Source: Leucobacter zeae (GTDB lineage: Bacteria > Actinomycetota > Actinomycetes > Actinomycetales > Microbacteriaceae). Taken from it: a stretch of DNA of 64,000 nt. The notes below the pieces were generated by a model that had not been told where the DNA came from, ran no database searches, and saw only the letters and a list, made by a program, of their open reading frames with translations. Made by a program: the position numbers and the translations under genes. Numbering within the stretch: position 1 is the stretch's first letter; every line of letters begins with the position of its first letter. Shown here one piece after another: positions 19,733-37,315 of the stretch. The stretch is taken from positions 62,001-126,000 of the forward strand of contig NZ_QYAB01000001.1 of NCBI RefSeq assembly GCF_016758175.1, in the 5' to 3' direction.

Positions 19733-20131
19733 CAGTTCTCCTCCTCGCGCGGTCACGCGGCTGTCGCCAGATAGTCGGCCTGACAATCTTTGCACACTCG
19801 GCGGTGGCCGGCATCCGGGCCTCGTGTTAACACGGCGGTCGGAGCGGATCCCGCCCGCTCGAGTGCGTGATCGAGTGCCCGTCTGAAAGAAGAGAGAGTG
19901 TTAACAGTGTTAACAGGTGTGGATACTGTGGATAACTCGGGACACGCCGGTCGAATCAACGGAACTACAGGTGTGTGAGTTGTTGACGACCGGTGGACAG
20001 TCGCTCTTCGGCGGAATCATGCGGATTTCTCCCGACTCGACGATTTCCACAGGGAGTTCGCATCCATCCACATCTTCACTCGAGTTATCCCCAGTTATCC
20101 ACAGGTGCGCGAAAAGGTGTGGAGAAACCGG
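19733..20131. other. oriC-type region between dnaA and dnaN
   Basis: A 399-bp non-coding stretch with DnaA boxes. TGTGGATAC (19918-19926) and TGTGGATAA (19927-19935) lie head to tail with no gap. TTATCCCCA (20085-20093) and TTATCCACA (20095-20103) form a second pair. Weaker versions are TTTCCACA near 20045 and TGTGGAGAA at 20118. Three TGTTAACA palindromes occur: CGTGTTAACACG (19823-19834) and two tandem AGTGTTAAC (19897-19914) abutting the first DnaA-box pair. The location between initiator and clamp genes, next to the point where coding strands flip, supports an origin role. Confidence 0.75.
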
Positions 20132-21586
20132 TCATCGCGATCCCTGCTTGATGCGCGTGGTCAGCTCGGTGACCTGGTTGTAGATCGAACGGCGCTCGGC
20201 GATCAGTTGCGAGATCTTCTTGTGCGCGTACATCACGGTGGTGTGGTCGCGCCCGCCGAAGAGCTGCCCGATCTTCGGCAGCGAGAGCGGCGTGAGCTCG
20301 CGGCAGAGGTACATGGCGATCTGTCGTGCGGTCGCGATCTGCTGGGCCCGCGACGGGCCGTAGAGCTCATCGACGGAGAGGTCGAAGTACTCGGCGGTCC
20401 TGCTGATGATGTCCGACGGCTGGACTTCGTTGTCGGCGTCGAGGGTGATGAGGTCCTTGAGCACCGTGTGCACGAGCGCCATGTCGATGGGCTGCTGGTT
20501 CAGGCTCGCGTACGCGGTCACGCGGATCAGCGTGCCCTCGAGTTCGCGGATGTTCGACGTGAACTTGCTCGCGATGAACTCGAGGATGCTGTAGTCGATC
20601 TCGAGGTTCTCGCGCTGGGCCTTCTTGCGGAGGATCGCGATCCGCGTCTCGAGGTCGGGGACCTGGATGTCGGTGAGCAGCCCCCACTCGAAGCGCGAGA
20701 GCATCCGCTCCTCGAAGCCACGGAGCTGCTTCGGCTGCACATCGCTCGTGATGACCACCTGCTTGTTGTGGTCGTGGAGCGTGTTGAAGGTGTGGAAGAA
20801 GGCCTCCTGGGTCTCCACCTTGTCCTCGAGGAACTGGATGTCGTCGACCAGCAGGATGTCCACGCTGCGGTACCGGGCGTGGAAAGCAGCGCCCTGGTTG
20901 TTCGCGATGGAGTTGATGAAGTCGTTCGTGAAGTCCTCGGAGCTCACATAGCGCACCCGGATGTTGGGGAACAGCTCGCGGGCGTAGTGCCCGATCGCAT
21001 GCAGCAGGTGCGTCTTGCCCAGACCCGAGTCTCCGTAGATGAAGAGCGGGTTGTAGGCGCGCGCGGGGGCCTCGGCCACGGCCACGGCCGCCGCATGGGC
21101 GAAGCGGTTCGACTGGCCGATGACGAAGCTGTCGAACCCGTACTTCTCGTTGAGGCGGCTGTCCCCCGCGTCCTCGGCTCCGTGCCTGCGACGGGGCTCG
21201 GCGACCGGGCGGTGGGAATCCTGCCTGGCGGAGTAGGCCGGAGCCGGCTCGTCGGGGAACCCCTGCGGTTCCGGCGCCGCGGGCGGCGCGGGTTCCGATT
21301 CGGGCTCCAGTACGGGGTGCGCGTCCTCATCGACGATGACGACGAAGTTGTGGATCTCCTCGGCCTCGGGGATCGCCGCGAGCGCGGCGATGATGGCGGG
21401 GCGCAGCCGGGTCTCCAGGAGCTTGAGCGTGAACTCCAACTGCACCGCGAGGTACAGCGTGCCCGCGGCGTGGCCGCGCGGCAGCGCCAGTGCGAGCTGC
21501 GCGCCGACGGCGGGACCGACGGAGGCGTCGCTCATCACGGCCTGGGTGACACGTCCCCAGATCTCCTGCAATTCATGCTCGGTCAC
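20132..21586 (-). CDS. dnaA: Chromosomal replication initiator DnaA
   Basis: AAA+ initiator that binds DnaA boxes and opens oriC. The product has 484 residues. Domain I is at 1-85, and domain II is a Pro/Glu-rich linker (about 92-145, [14 protein letters not shown]). The AAA+ domain has Walker [10 protein letters not shown] (185-193) and Walker [10 protein letters not shown]. The C-terminal DNA-binding domain carries the signature [15 protein letters not shown]. The start is GTG (21586) with no strong Shine-Dalgarno. DnaA-box-like sequences stand on both sides of the gene, so autoregulation is likely. Confidence 0.97.
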
Positions 21587-21923
21587 GCGATGGTCCGCAT
21601 CCAGTCGCAGCGTGGGTCAGAGCGAAGTTATGCCCAGCTCTGTCCACAGCTTGATTTGAAAAGTTTGTTGCCACGTATGGGATCGATCCATTCGCGGGAA
21701 CGCCTGCGCCCACGTTAGTCACAGATTTGTCCACAGGCAAGTCAGTTGCAGCGCGCCCGCGTCACCGCACCGAACGGTCGAGGCGCGCTTTGACGAATCG
21801 GCGCACAGGGCGTAGAGTGGGTTTCTTGTATGGGCGTGAGCTCCTTTGAGTTCTGCCCAAAACCGGCTTCCTCTCGGTCACCGAGCCGCGGGGATCTATC
21901 CCATAAGTCACGGAGTCCTCACT
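21587..21923. other. dnaA-rpmH divergent intergenic region with DnaA boxes
   Basis: 337 bp between the divergent dnaA and rpmH genes. It holds TTGTCCACA (21727-21735), the DnaA-box form preferred by high-G+C actinobacteria such as Streptomyces, CTGTCCACA (21640-21648), a short A+T-rich run (21650-21668) and the rpmH promoter. It may be part of a bipartite origin or the dnaA autoregulatory region. Confidence 0.7.
21790..21818 (+). promoter_or_regulatory. Sigma-70-type promoter of rpmH
   Basis: TTGACG (21790-21795), a 17-bp spacer and TAGAGT (21813-21818). The expected start of transcription is near 21825, giving a leader of about 100 nt before rpmH. Confidence 0.75.
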
Positions 21924-35020: not shown

Positions 35021-35470
35021 ATGGCGAAGGTAATTCTCACCAACGAGGTCCAGGGCCTCGGTTCGGCCGGAGACGTCGTCGACGTCAAGAACGGCTACGC
35101 GCGCAACTACCTCGTGCCCCAGGGCTACGGGGTGCACTGGACCCGCGGCGGCGAGGCCCAGGTCGCGCAGCTCCGCGCCGCCCGCGAGGCGCGCGCGCTC
35201 GCTTCGGTCGAGGACGCTCAGGCGCTCAAGGCCAAGCTGCAGGAGGGCAAGATCCGCTTCGAGGCGAAGGCCGGCAACGGCGGCCGCCTCTTCGGCGCCG
35301 TGAAGCCCGCCGGCGTCGCCGCTGCGGTCTCCGCCGCAGGCCTCGGCGAGGTCGACAAGCGCAAGATCACGGTTCCGTCGATCAAGTCGACCGGCGAGTA
35401 CAAGGTCGTCGTGCACCTGCACGAGGGCGTCGACGCCGAGATCACGCTGCAGGTCATCGCCCAGCGCTGA
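35021..35470 (+). CDS. rplI: 50S ribosomal protein L9
   Basis: 149 residues, two-domain L9. The N-terminal domain has [30 protein letters not shown], the family signature; a long helix and the C-terminal domain ([17 protein letters not shown]) follow. Last gene of the operon, followed by a strong terminator. Confidence 0.97.
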
Positions 35471-35486
35471 TCGCATCCGTGCTCGT

Positions 35487-35524
35487 CCGTGGGGCGGCGA
35501 TCCTTCGGGATCGCCGCCCCACGG
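35487..35524 (+). terminator. Terminator with UUCG loop after rplI
   Basis: A perfect 17-bp stem (35487-35503 with 35508-35524) capped by TTCG, one of the most stable RNA tetraloops. Confidence 0.88.
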
Positions 35525-35629
35525 CGTTCCGGGCGCCTCGGGTTCGCCTCGAGCGCAGTGAACGCCGCGTGAACGCCAGGCTCCTTCGCGCGCTCGGCGC
35601 GAGCGCGGAGACGGGAATCGGGGCCGGCG

Positions 35630-35824
35630 TTGTCCACACGCCGACGCGCGCTCGGGATATTCAACTTCCACTTGAAACTTGAATAACTTTTCCGATGTGG
35701 AAAGTTGTTTTTCCCGGTCAGAGCGAAAAAGCGCGAGCCAGTCCACAAGTCCTCCACAACTTGTCCCCAAGATTGTGAATAACTTACGGCATTCTGCGGT
35801 GAGTTTTCCACCGAGTTATCCACA
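35630..35824. other. A+T-rich DnaA-box cluster upstream of dnaB
   Basis: The 468-bp gap between rplI and dnaB (35471-35938) contains two perfect DnaA-box types, TTGTCCACA (35630-35638) and TTATCCACA (35816-35824), and near matches TTGTCCCCA (35761-35769), TGTGAATAA (35774-35782, reverse), CAGTCCACA (35739-35747), TCCTCCACA (35750-35758) and TGTGGAAAG (35696-35704, reverse). The stretch 35657-35730 is only about 40% G+C by eye, with tandem ACTTGAA units. This resembles origin DNA more than an ordinary promoter. Confidence 0.7.
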
Positions 35825-35938
35825 GGCCGATCTCCGGCCGGTTGGCCGATACCGATGGTGCCCGTAGCGTGAATGTCGGGGGTCGGGTATCTGATGCATC
35901 GGTAACCGATCCCGCAGTGTGAAGAAGGAGCGACCGAA

Positions 35939-37315
35939 GTGTCCATGGCGCATCTGGGAATCGACGACCCCTTCGTCGACGAGCCCTCCCGGGGGCACGA
36001 GCGGACTCCCCCGCACGACCTGCTCGCGGAGCAGAGCGCGCTCGGCGGCATGCTGCTGTCGAAGGACGCCGTCGCGGACGTCACCGGTCTGCTGACGGGC
36101 GCCGACTTCTACGTCCCCAAGCACGAGGTCATCTACGAGGCTGTGCTCTCGCTCTACTCGCGGGGCGAGCCGACCGATGTGATCACCGTCACCGACGAGC
36201 TCACGAAGACGGGCGACCTGCAGCGCGCCGGCGGTCCGGAGTACCTGCACACGGTCACGAGCATCGTGCCGACTGCGGCCAACGCCAGCTTCTACGCCGA
36301 GATCGTGGCCGAGAAGGCGCTGCTGCGCCGACTCGTCGACGCGGGCACGCGCATCGTCCAGATGGGCTACGCGGGCGAGGGCGAGGCGATCGACCTCGTC
36401 AACGTCGCGCAGTCCGAGATCTACGGGGTCACCGGTGAGAGCCAGGGCGAGGACTACGTCCCCCTCCATCTCGCGGTCGACGCCGCGCTCGAGGAGATCA
36501 ACAAGGCCAACGGCGCAGCGGACGGCATGCTCGGTGTGCCGACGGGATTCAGCGAGCTCGACGCGATGACGAACGGGTTCGCCGGCGGGCAGATGATCAT
36601 CATCGCTGCGCGACCCGCCATGGGCAAGTCGACGCTCGCCATGGACGTCGCCCGCAACGCCTCGGTGCACGCGAACGCCCCGACGGTCTTCTTCTCACTC
36701 GAGATGGGCCGTGCCGAGATCGCGATGCGTCTGCTCGCTGCAGAGGCCTCGATCCCCATGCAGACGCTGCGCAAGGGTGCGCTCGACAACCGCGACTTCC
36801 AGAAGCTCGCGGCCACGCAGGCGCGCGTCGCCGAGGCGCCGCTCTTCATCGACGACAGCCCGAACCTCACGCTCGTCGAGATCCGAGCGAAGTGCCGGCG
36901 GCTCAAGCAGCAGCACGGGCTGCGCATGGTCGTCATCGACTACCTGCAGCTGCTCTCGAGCGGCAAGAAGTCCGAGAGCCGTCAGCAAGAGGTCTCGGAG
37001 TTCTCGCGCGCCCTCAAGTTGCTCTCGAAGGAGCTCGACGTGCCGGTCATCGCGCTGTCGCAGCTGAACCGAGCCTCCGAGCAGCGCGCCGACAAGATGC
37101 CGGCGATCAGCGACCTGCGCGAGTCGGGCTCGCTGGAGCAGGACGCCGATATGGTCATCCTGCTGCACCGCGAGGCCGTCGGGGATCGCGACAGCCCGCG
37201 GGCAGGCGAGGCGGACTTCATCCTCGCCAAGCAGCGCAACGGTCCCACTGGTACCGTCACGGTCGCGTTCCAGGGCCACTACTCGCGCTTCCAGGACATG
37301 CCCCAGGGCATCTGA
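35939..37315 (+). CDS. dnaB: Replicative DNA helicase DnaB
   Basis: Hexameric 5'-3' helicase of the replication fork; 458 residues, no intein. The N-terminal domain starts PPHDLLAEQSALGGMLLSKDAV; the RecA-like C-terminal domain has Walker A ARPAMGKST and Walker B MVVIDYLQLL, then SQLNRASEQRADKMPAISDLRESGSLEQDAD. The start is GTG (35939) with AAGGAG eight bases upstream; an ATG two codons later is possible. The DnaA-box cluster lies directly upstream. Confidence 0.97.
   Translation: MSMAHLGIDDPFVDEPSRGHERTPPHDLLAEQSALGGMLLSKDAVADVTGLLTGADFYVPKHEVIYEAVLSLYSRGEPTDVITVTDELTKTGDLQRAGGPEYLHTVTSIVPTAANASFYAEIVAEKALLRRLVDAGTRIVQMGYAGEGEAIDLVNVAQSEIYGVTGESQGEDYVPLHLAVDAALEEINKANGAADGMLGVPTGFSELDAMTNGFAGGQMIIIAARPAMGKSTLAMDVARNASVHANAPTVFFSLEMGRAEIAMRLLAAEASIPMQTLRKGALDNRDFQKLAATQARVAEAPLFIDDSPNLTLVEIRAKCRRLKQQHGLRMVVIDYLQLLSSGKKSESRQQEVSEFSRALKLLSKELDVPVIALSQLNRASEQRADKMPAISDLRESGSLEQDADMVILLHREAVGDRDSPRAGEADFILAKQRNGPTGTVTVAFQGHYSRFQDMPQGI

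Follow-up and report, generated by a model that had tools for sequence, protein, structure and literature searches.

A conserved, helically phased DnaA-box array upstream of dnaB in Leucobacter and other Actinomycetes, predicted to place the replicative helicase gene under DnaA control

The locus described here is the 468-bp gap between rplI and dnaB in a Leucobacter genome (Microbacteriaceae) of 3.47 Mb, of which a stretch of 64,000 nucleotides (C1:62001-126000, hereafter the window) was analysed as a whole. On the left of the gap lies rplI (35021..35470, + strand), which encodes ribosomal protein L9 (Pfam PF01281 and PF03948). On its right lies dnaB (35939..37315, +), which encodes the replicative DNA helicase (PF00772 and PF03796) and whose product has its closest named relatives in Leucobacter, with 96% identity in the best segment. 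In many genomes of the class, DnaB matches fall into two pieces within one long open frame, an intein-like pattern. The same window carries dnaA (20132-21586), which runs leftward with dnaN after it. Just 3' of rplI the gap opens with a perfect hairpin (35487..35524, +; 17-bp stem, TTCG loop), and the rplI-side stretch 35471-35545 has a folding energy of -52.7 kcal/mol (z -5.55). This hairpin is perhaps the rplI terminator; it has no T-run, and the terminator scan gives no entry there. A known Rfam element in the gap was ruled out, as all four matches returned by the search fell below the gathering score.

Two predicted DnaA boxes in the gap are exact, confirming the pair of textbook boxes that a sequence-only reading of this DNA had reported before dnaB: an outer box, TTGTCCACA, at 35630..35638 (+), a place that in Leucobacter mostly reads TTGTCCACA or TTCTCCACA, and an inner box, TTATCCACA, at 35816..35824 (+). 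That reading had also listed near matches, and seven further boxes were indeed found. Two of these have one mismatch, namely TTGTCCCCA at 35761..35769 (+), where TTRTCCCCA is common in the genus, and TTATTCACA at 35774..35782 (-). The other five are weak, with two mismatches each: CTTTCCACA at 35696..35704 (-), inside an A+T-rich module and at a place that is exact or has one mismatch in part of the relatives; CAGTCCACA at 35739..35747 (+); TCCTCCACA at 35750..35758 (+), in which TCCACA is kept across the genus; TTTTCCACC at 35804..35812 (+); and a box at 35918 (-). The boxes at 35739, 35750 and 35761 follow one another at a spacing of 11 bp. The low-G+C patch is equally real, with a G+C content of 0.42 over 35668-35724 against 0.61 for the whole gap. 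The repeated ACTTGAA units ascribed to it are present here as two copies, beginning by eye at 35670 and 35677, but the genus alignment keeps only one CTTGAATAACTTT and the repeat as such is not conserved. A DnaA-trio in the patch was rejected on inspection by eye, since no regular three-base period of the Bacillus kind is present.

Genome-wide counts place this cluster above background. Exact TTRTCCACA occurs 19 times in the genome as against twice for the pattern read backwards, 13 of the 19 sites lie before C1:271000, and only four places hold two exact boxes within 200 bp: the dnaA-dnaN gap, the rplI-dnaB gap, C1:206640/206683 and C1:248897/249029. Together with the reversed-sequence controls in relatives given below, these counts rule out a chance origin of the array. 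One-mismatch boxes show no genome-wide excess (212 vs 228), so that single near matches mean little alone and conservation must carry the weak boxes; the near-match boxes here are supported by fixed positions in relatives. A search across the genus for two exact boxes 20-60 bp apart, positive in 14 of 54 genomes, was uninformative, 10 of those 14 places adjoining dnaA or dnaB by coordinates.

Several other sites deserve mention in their own right. Outside the window, C1:206616-206691 and C1:248862-249037 each hold two exact boxes and near matches and are candidates for further DnaA sites. In three Leucobacter genomes a two-box sequence, similar among them, lies away from dnaA and dnaB (G020:C2:484255, G021:C1:2046712, G030:C1:71657). 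An exact box at C1:270182 of the window's genome has an NrdR-box-like sequence some 130 bp away, perhaps part of a ribonucleotide reductase promoter. Within the window, the rpmH-dnaA gap (21640-21740) carries CTGTCCACA at 21640 and TTGTCCACA at 21727, one or two exact boxes being found in this gap in most of 30 relatives' loci; such boxes would fit dnaA autoregulation. In the dnaA-dnaN gap, a palindrome at 19898-19916, GTTAACACTGTTAAC in the dnaA sense, stands beside the inner box and is nearly invariant in an alignment of 29 Leucobacter loci.

The boxes before dnaB are conserved among relatives, as the sequence-only reading would need. The inner TTATCCACA is exact in 54/54 Leucobacter loci in which dnaB was found (53 genomes); these comprise 48 of the 50 first examined and six added later, the additions having come from two loci whose first stretch did not reach dnaB and from five others, of which six carry the array, while genome G039, which ends before dnaB, stands outside the count. 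Across the genus, relative to the start codon, boxes recur at about -308, -242, -188, -177, -164, -134 and -122, though individual genomes may lack some of them. At least one exact box lies within 400 bp of dnaB in 48/48 Leucobacter loci (reversed sequence, 0/48), in 30/33 loci of a Microbacteriaceae family sample (reversed, 3/33) and in 62/67 named Microbacteriaceae other than Leucobacter (reversed, 0/67), the last two sets possibly sharing species. The family sample was drawn as 40 loci, from which seven without dnaB in the stretch (L073-L075, L077, L088-L090) were excluded; six of these seven do carry the array, and at L283 no dnaB was found within 14 kb. Beyond the family, the same count gave 13/20 class loci (reversed, 0/20) and 4/5 Arthrobacter loci (reversed, 0/5), and in a larger class set, two of whose 60 loci are incomplete stretches, an exact box lies within 600 bp of dnaB in 36. 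The sequence of locus L206 is incomplete, and all of these loci share ancestry, so that the counts are not independent events. The comparison nevertheless indicates an old, conserved set of predicted DnaA boxes before dnaB. The set follows dnaB and not rplI: in 12 loci (L102, L170, L178, L205, L280, L281, L282, L284-L288) rplI lies 1.4-10.5 kb from dnaB, and all 12 keep an exact box within 400 bp of dnaB. Because the array persists where rplI is elsewhere, rplI appears to be no part of the predicted dnaB switch, and control through an rplI leader or a ribosomal protein was ruled out.

Downstream of the inner box lies a predicted dnaB promoter, TTGGCC-N17-TAGCGT (35842..35870, +), with its -35 hexamer at 35842-35847, 17 bp from the inner box, its -10 hexamer at 35865-35870 and an expected transcription start near 35877. 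The hexamers are poor, and a strict sigma-70 scan found no promoter in the gap; the pair was sought with the pattern TTGNNN-N16-19-TANNNT, and an equivalent is present in 45/48 Leucobacter loci. Boxes were scored by fewest mismatches and then by nearness, a rule that favours short distances to the -35. Under it, the inner box lies 17-19 bp from the -35 in 32 of the 48 Leucobacter loci and 28-29 bp in 13 (no pair in 3); 7-8 bp in 25 and 16-19 bp in 4 of the 33 loci of the family sample (no pair in 4); and 7-8 bp in 54 and 19 bp in 4 of the 67 named Microbacteriaceae (no pair in 9). Not one of these 148 loci, 16 of them without a pair, shows a distance of 9-15 or 20-27 bp, and box-promoter pairs were found in 0/148 reversed and 1/148 shuffled controls. 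Twelve loci added later gave 7 bp (five loci), 17 bp (three) and 18 bp (four). The 25 class and Arthrobacter loci were less uniform, with distances of 7, 18-20 (10 loci), 28, 30, 31 and 40 bp and 10 loci without a pair. The steps of 7-8, 16-19 and 28-29 bp fit separations of one and two helix turns that would keep the box on one helix face. The distance from box to promoter is thus fixed in steps, whereas that from promoter to dnaB varies widely, the -35 lying between about 60 and 306 bp upstream of the position that aligns with the first residue of this DnaB (a position set by alignment, not by start codons). DnaA boxes here adjoin a predicted promoter at a conserved position, as would be expected of a DnaA-regulated promoter.

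A cluster of DnaA boxes with an A+T-rich element, both of which the rplI-dnaB gap holds, also recalls a replication origin, and one suggestion had been that the gap forms a further portion of the origin, no less origin-like than the dnaA-dnaN gap. By box count that comparison is about right (two exact and two one-mismatch boxes before dnaB; two exact and three one-mismatch boxes between dnaA and dnaN), and in many Leucobacter the distance from outer to inner box is about 185-191 bp in both gaps, but box content does not decide where an origin lies. A conserved array with fixed boxes is also present between dnaA and dnaN. Gene direction switches at dnaA, from mostly leftward on its left to mostly rightward on its right; by our crude gene calls, rightward genes make up 27% of coding bp at -20 to -2 kb, 75% at 3-9 kb and 67% at 9-15.5 kb (dnaA = 0). 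Third-codon-position skew per gene, fitted with gene strand as a covariate on the same kind of gene calls, was compared over 200 kb around dnaA in each of four single-contig relatives and over the window. No strand-composition switch was found at the array, the skew itself being weak. Among the breaks compared, the dnaA-dnaN gap was best, with a residual of 1944 against 2009 at the array (+16 kb); it beat the array in 300/300 bootstraps, in none of which the array was best, and in 299/300 when the window was left out, the array region (+19 kb) then being best once. A break left of -10 kb was preferred in 145/300 bootstraps (197/300 without the window), so that nothing beyond the ranking of the two candidates against each other is firm. 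On the fit and the bootstraps a second origin at rplI-dnaB was rejected, and the skew check suggested for initiation came out in favour of the dnaA side; that the gap is part of the origin, or the true origin, we regard as extremely unlikely.

The A+T-rich patch forms part of a conserved module (35668..35724, +) that was delimited by genus alignment and by a sequence model, R1, and that here ends in GGTCAG. In other Actinomycetes the module ends in CGCAGGTCAG; in the class alignment this non-box motif lies upstream of dnaB, some 25 bp beyond a pair of weak boxes and a run rich in A+T. Allowing up to one mismatch, CGCAGGTCAG was found before dnaB in 24/60 class loci, a few of them outside the usual context, and exactly in 15/60; reversed, with at most one mismatch, it was found in 0/60. 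The corresponding CTG[AGT]TCA was found 102-105 bp upstream of the inner box in 27/45, 16/29 and 24/58 loci of three Microbacteriaceae sets. R1 has 60 positions and was trained on 53 hand-picked windows, with L111, L204, L207, L152, L179, L020 and L067 left out as misplaced or doubtful. The window's sequence was absent from training, and 35668-35724 is its sole match at E<=1 (E 0.012); at E<=0.1, a search of the window's whole genome gave no match. Of 62 named Microbacteriaceae loci outside the training set, 57 were tested (L152, L163, L167, L179 and L181 being omitted), some of which may be of the same species as training loci; over these 410 kb R1 gave 44 matches at E<=0.5, one per locus, and 44/44 lie on the dnaB strand just upstream of dnaB, with none elsewhere. 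In 118 class genomes it found 136 places in 88 genomes at E<=0.1, with a place within 700 bp of the dnaB 5' end in 58 genomes, counts that are in part by construction, 28 of the training windows having come from these genomes. Forty-nine places lie neither at dnaB nor at the hairpin element described below, many of them weak.

A motif of this reach raises the reading that a protein other than DnaA, binding CGCAGGTCAG/CTGDTCA in the module, is the main regulator and the boxes are accessories. The class-wide distribution of the motif against its reversed control agrees with this, as does its presence at loci without exact boxes (such as L124, L125 and L126). Within Microbacteriaceae, by contrast, the boxes are more constant than the motif, which is missing from 18/45, 12/29 and 32/58 loci, and in mycobacteria DnaA is bound upstream of dnaB both in vitro and in living cells (PMC7738170). 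We therefore hold such a regulator to be very unlikely as the main one.

The module is shared with a second element, which resembles a structured RNA. R1 places lie within 320 bp of the string GCAAGGGGAAGGC in 29 class genomes, 15 of which also have a place at dnaB. The string occurs at 76 places in 64/118 genomes as against about 40 for its reversal (summed by eye) and is by itself weak evidence. It forms the loop of a long hairpin at 23 of 30 loci examined, one per genome from these 64; the seven without hairpin and box context were set aside. In an alignment of the 23 hairpin loci (L342, L343, L345, L346, L348, L349, L352-L356, L358-L369; loop near 1500 in most), 19 consensus pairs were found, nine with compensatory changes. 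Two examples fold at -59.5 and -71.5 kcal/mol (z -5.8 and -6.8), and three hairpin loci gave no Rfam match at E<=0.1. R1, trained on dnaB regions only, matches 22/23 hairpin loci, a count that like that of the boxes arises partly by selection, and 4/16 further loci found with R2. Among 28 hairpin loci, the box nearest to the -35 lies 18-19 bp away in 21 and 8, 29, 31 or 40 bp away in six, with none in one; pairs were found in 0/28 reversed and 3/560 shuffled controls, and seven R2 loci without the loop string used for orientation were left unscored. A homologous protein is encoded upstream on the opposite strand at 23/23 hairpin loci, and two examples of it are YgjP-like metallopeptidases. At these loci the hairpin follows a module of the dnaB type, DnaA boxes and a promoter-like pair with TTGAC in phase with them, and a divergent ygjP-like gene lies beside it. 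In the window's Leucobacter genome the hairpin was sought and neither the loop string nor an R2 match was found, the window itself giving matches only at E 0.91. R2 matches occur in at least 13/198 genomes of the order, all 13 outside Microbacteriaceae, and in at least 4/296 genomes of a phylum draw, both being lower bounds from searches with stricter filters; taken alone, R2 suggests a patchy spread.

Since the array stands at helical steps from a promoter-like pair before two unrelated units, transcription control by DnaA is the best explanation of the whole, and we consider it probable that the rplI-dnaB gap is a DnaA-controlled promoter region of dnaB. This is one of the roles that had been suggested from the sequence, and it draws support from the helical phasing of the array to a likely promoter and from its travelling with dnaB. 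DnaA would bind the strong outer box at 35630, the weaker and intermediate boxes grouped with the A+T-rich module, and the strong inner box at 35816; from the inner box, 17 bp upstream of the -35 and on the right helix face, it would lie next to RNA polymerase. Graded box strengths could give a cooperative response. We infer the binding, the use of the promoter and activation as the effect. The sign is most likely activation, to judge from this geometry and from one mutant in another order, and repression is possible; with activation, helicase supply would follow active DnaA. Against a DnaA promoter stand the box-poor members of the class, 24/60 loci having no exact box within 600 bp, and an array that, at about 200 bp plus a conserved module, is more than a simple activator site needs.

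The surplus of boxes would suit a titration or nucleotide-exchange locus of the datA/DARS type, to which dnaB is a mere neighbour: lying 16 kb from oriC, such a cluster would be duplicated shortly after initiation and would lower or reset active DnaA. Many graded boxes, proximity to oriC and conserved geometry speak for it. Helper-protein (IHF/Fis) sites are present at datA/DARS, and the non-box module could be a site of that kind; DnaA-box clusters with such a role are also said to exist in S. coelicolor. Titration alone leaves unexplained the phasing to the dnaB promoter, the linkage to dnaB and the recurrence of the same array before another promoter-like pair; that the array is phased to the dnaB promoter and inherited with it makes a locus acting without a neighbouring promoter less likely. 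We judge this reading unlikely on its own, and a titration or reactivation role may coexist with control of dnaB.

The two sets of loci may represent a new class of DnaA-dependent promoters in Actinomycetes, in which a 60-bp module, made of a weak box pair and a CGCAGGTCAG site for a partner, together with a phased inner box, drives dnaB and, next to a ygjP-like gene, a structured hairpin RNA of a new kind. We put this forward tentatively, at somewhat less than an even chance; if true, the hairpin RNA and the module's partner would be new parts of an actinobacterial cell-cycle circuit. In much of the class, DnaA-controlled dnaB would link how much helicase is made to how active its recruiter, DnaA, is. 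The boxes, the phase and the module make a promoter that is directly testable in harmless actinomycetes of the laboratory, and the sharing of the module suggests that a second factor works together with DnaA and that an unannotated RNA is regulated in the same way.

Among known systems, E. coli datA and DARS are like the array in having DnaA boxes clustered outside oriC and differ in acting on the nucleotide state of DnaA; no phased promoter is known at either. Clusters H69, H24 and D78 of Streptomyces coelicolor, reportedly described as titration sites by Smulczyk-Krawczyszyn in 2006, likewise group DnaA boxes close to oriC in an actinomycete, presumably with one cluster on a cosmid carrying dnaB, and differ from the present array in that role. 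DnaA control of dnaB in Caulobacter crescentus was reportedly found by Hottes in 2005. Predicted DnaA boxes lie upstream of dnaB in that species and dnaB belongs to its DnaA regulon, the likeness being in the position of the boxes and the difference in the distant phylum (PMC8203912). Closest to the present case is the mycobacterial site (Rv0057 region), with the same gene, the same phylum and DnaA upstream of dnaB: PMC7738170 reports binding there in vitro in M. tuberculosis (IDAP-seq) and in vivo in M. smegmatis (ChIP-seq), and under-expression of dnaB in an M. tuberculosis DnaA variant that binds less upstream of dnaB, which points to activation. The sequence-only reading knew of no such locus before dnaB in this group; that holds for Microbacteriaceae in the open-licence papers searched, but not for other Actinomycetota (PMC7738170), and DnaA action at dnaB is already known from mycobacteria and Caulobacter. 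In many bacteria, among them mycobacteria, homologues of the classical DnaA regulators have not been identified (PMC5720831), so that the array opens a concrete way in. The mycobacterial site belongs to another order, and box architecture, phasing, module and conservation do not figure in the passages on it in PMC7738170; for these, and for the RNA twin, no description was found in the open-licence papers searched. What appears to be new here is accordingly the phased architecture, the class-wide 60-bp module with CGCAGGTCAG, and the recurrence of this module, with its boxes and their spacing, ahead of a hairpin RNA-like element.
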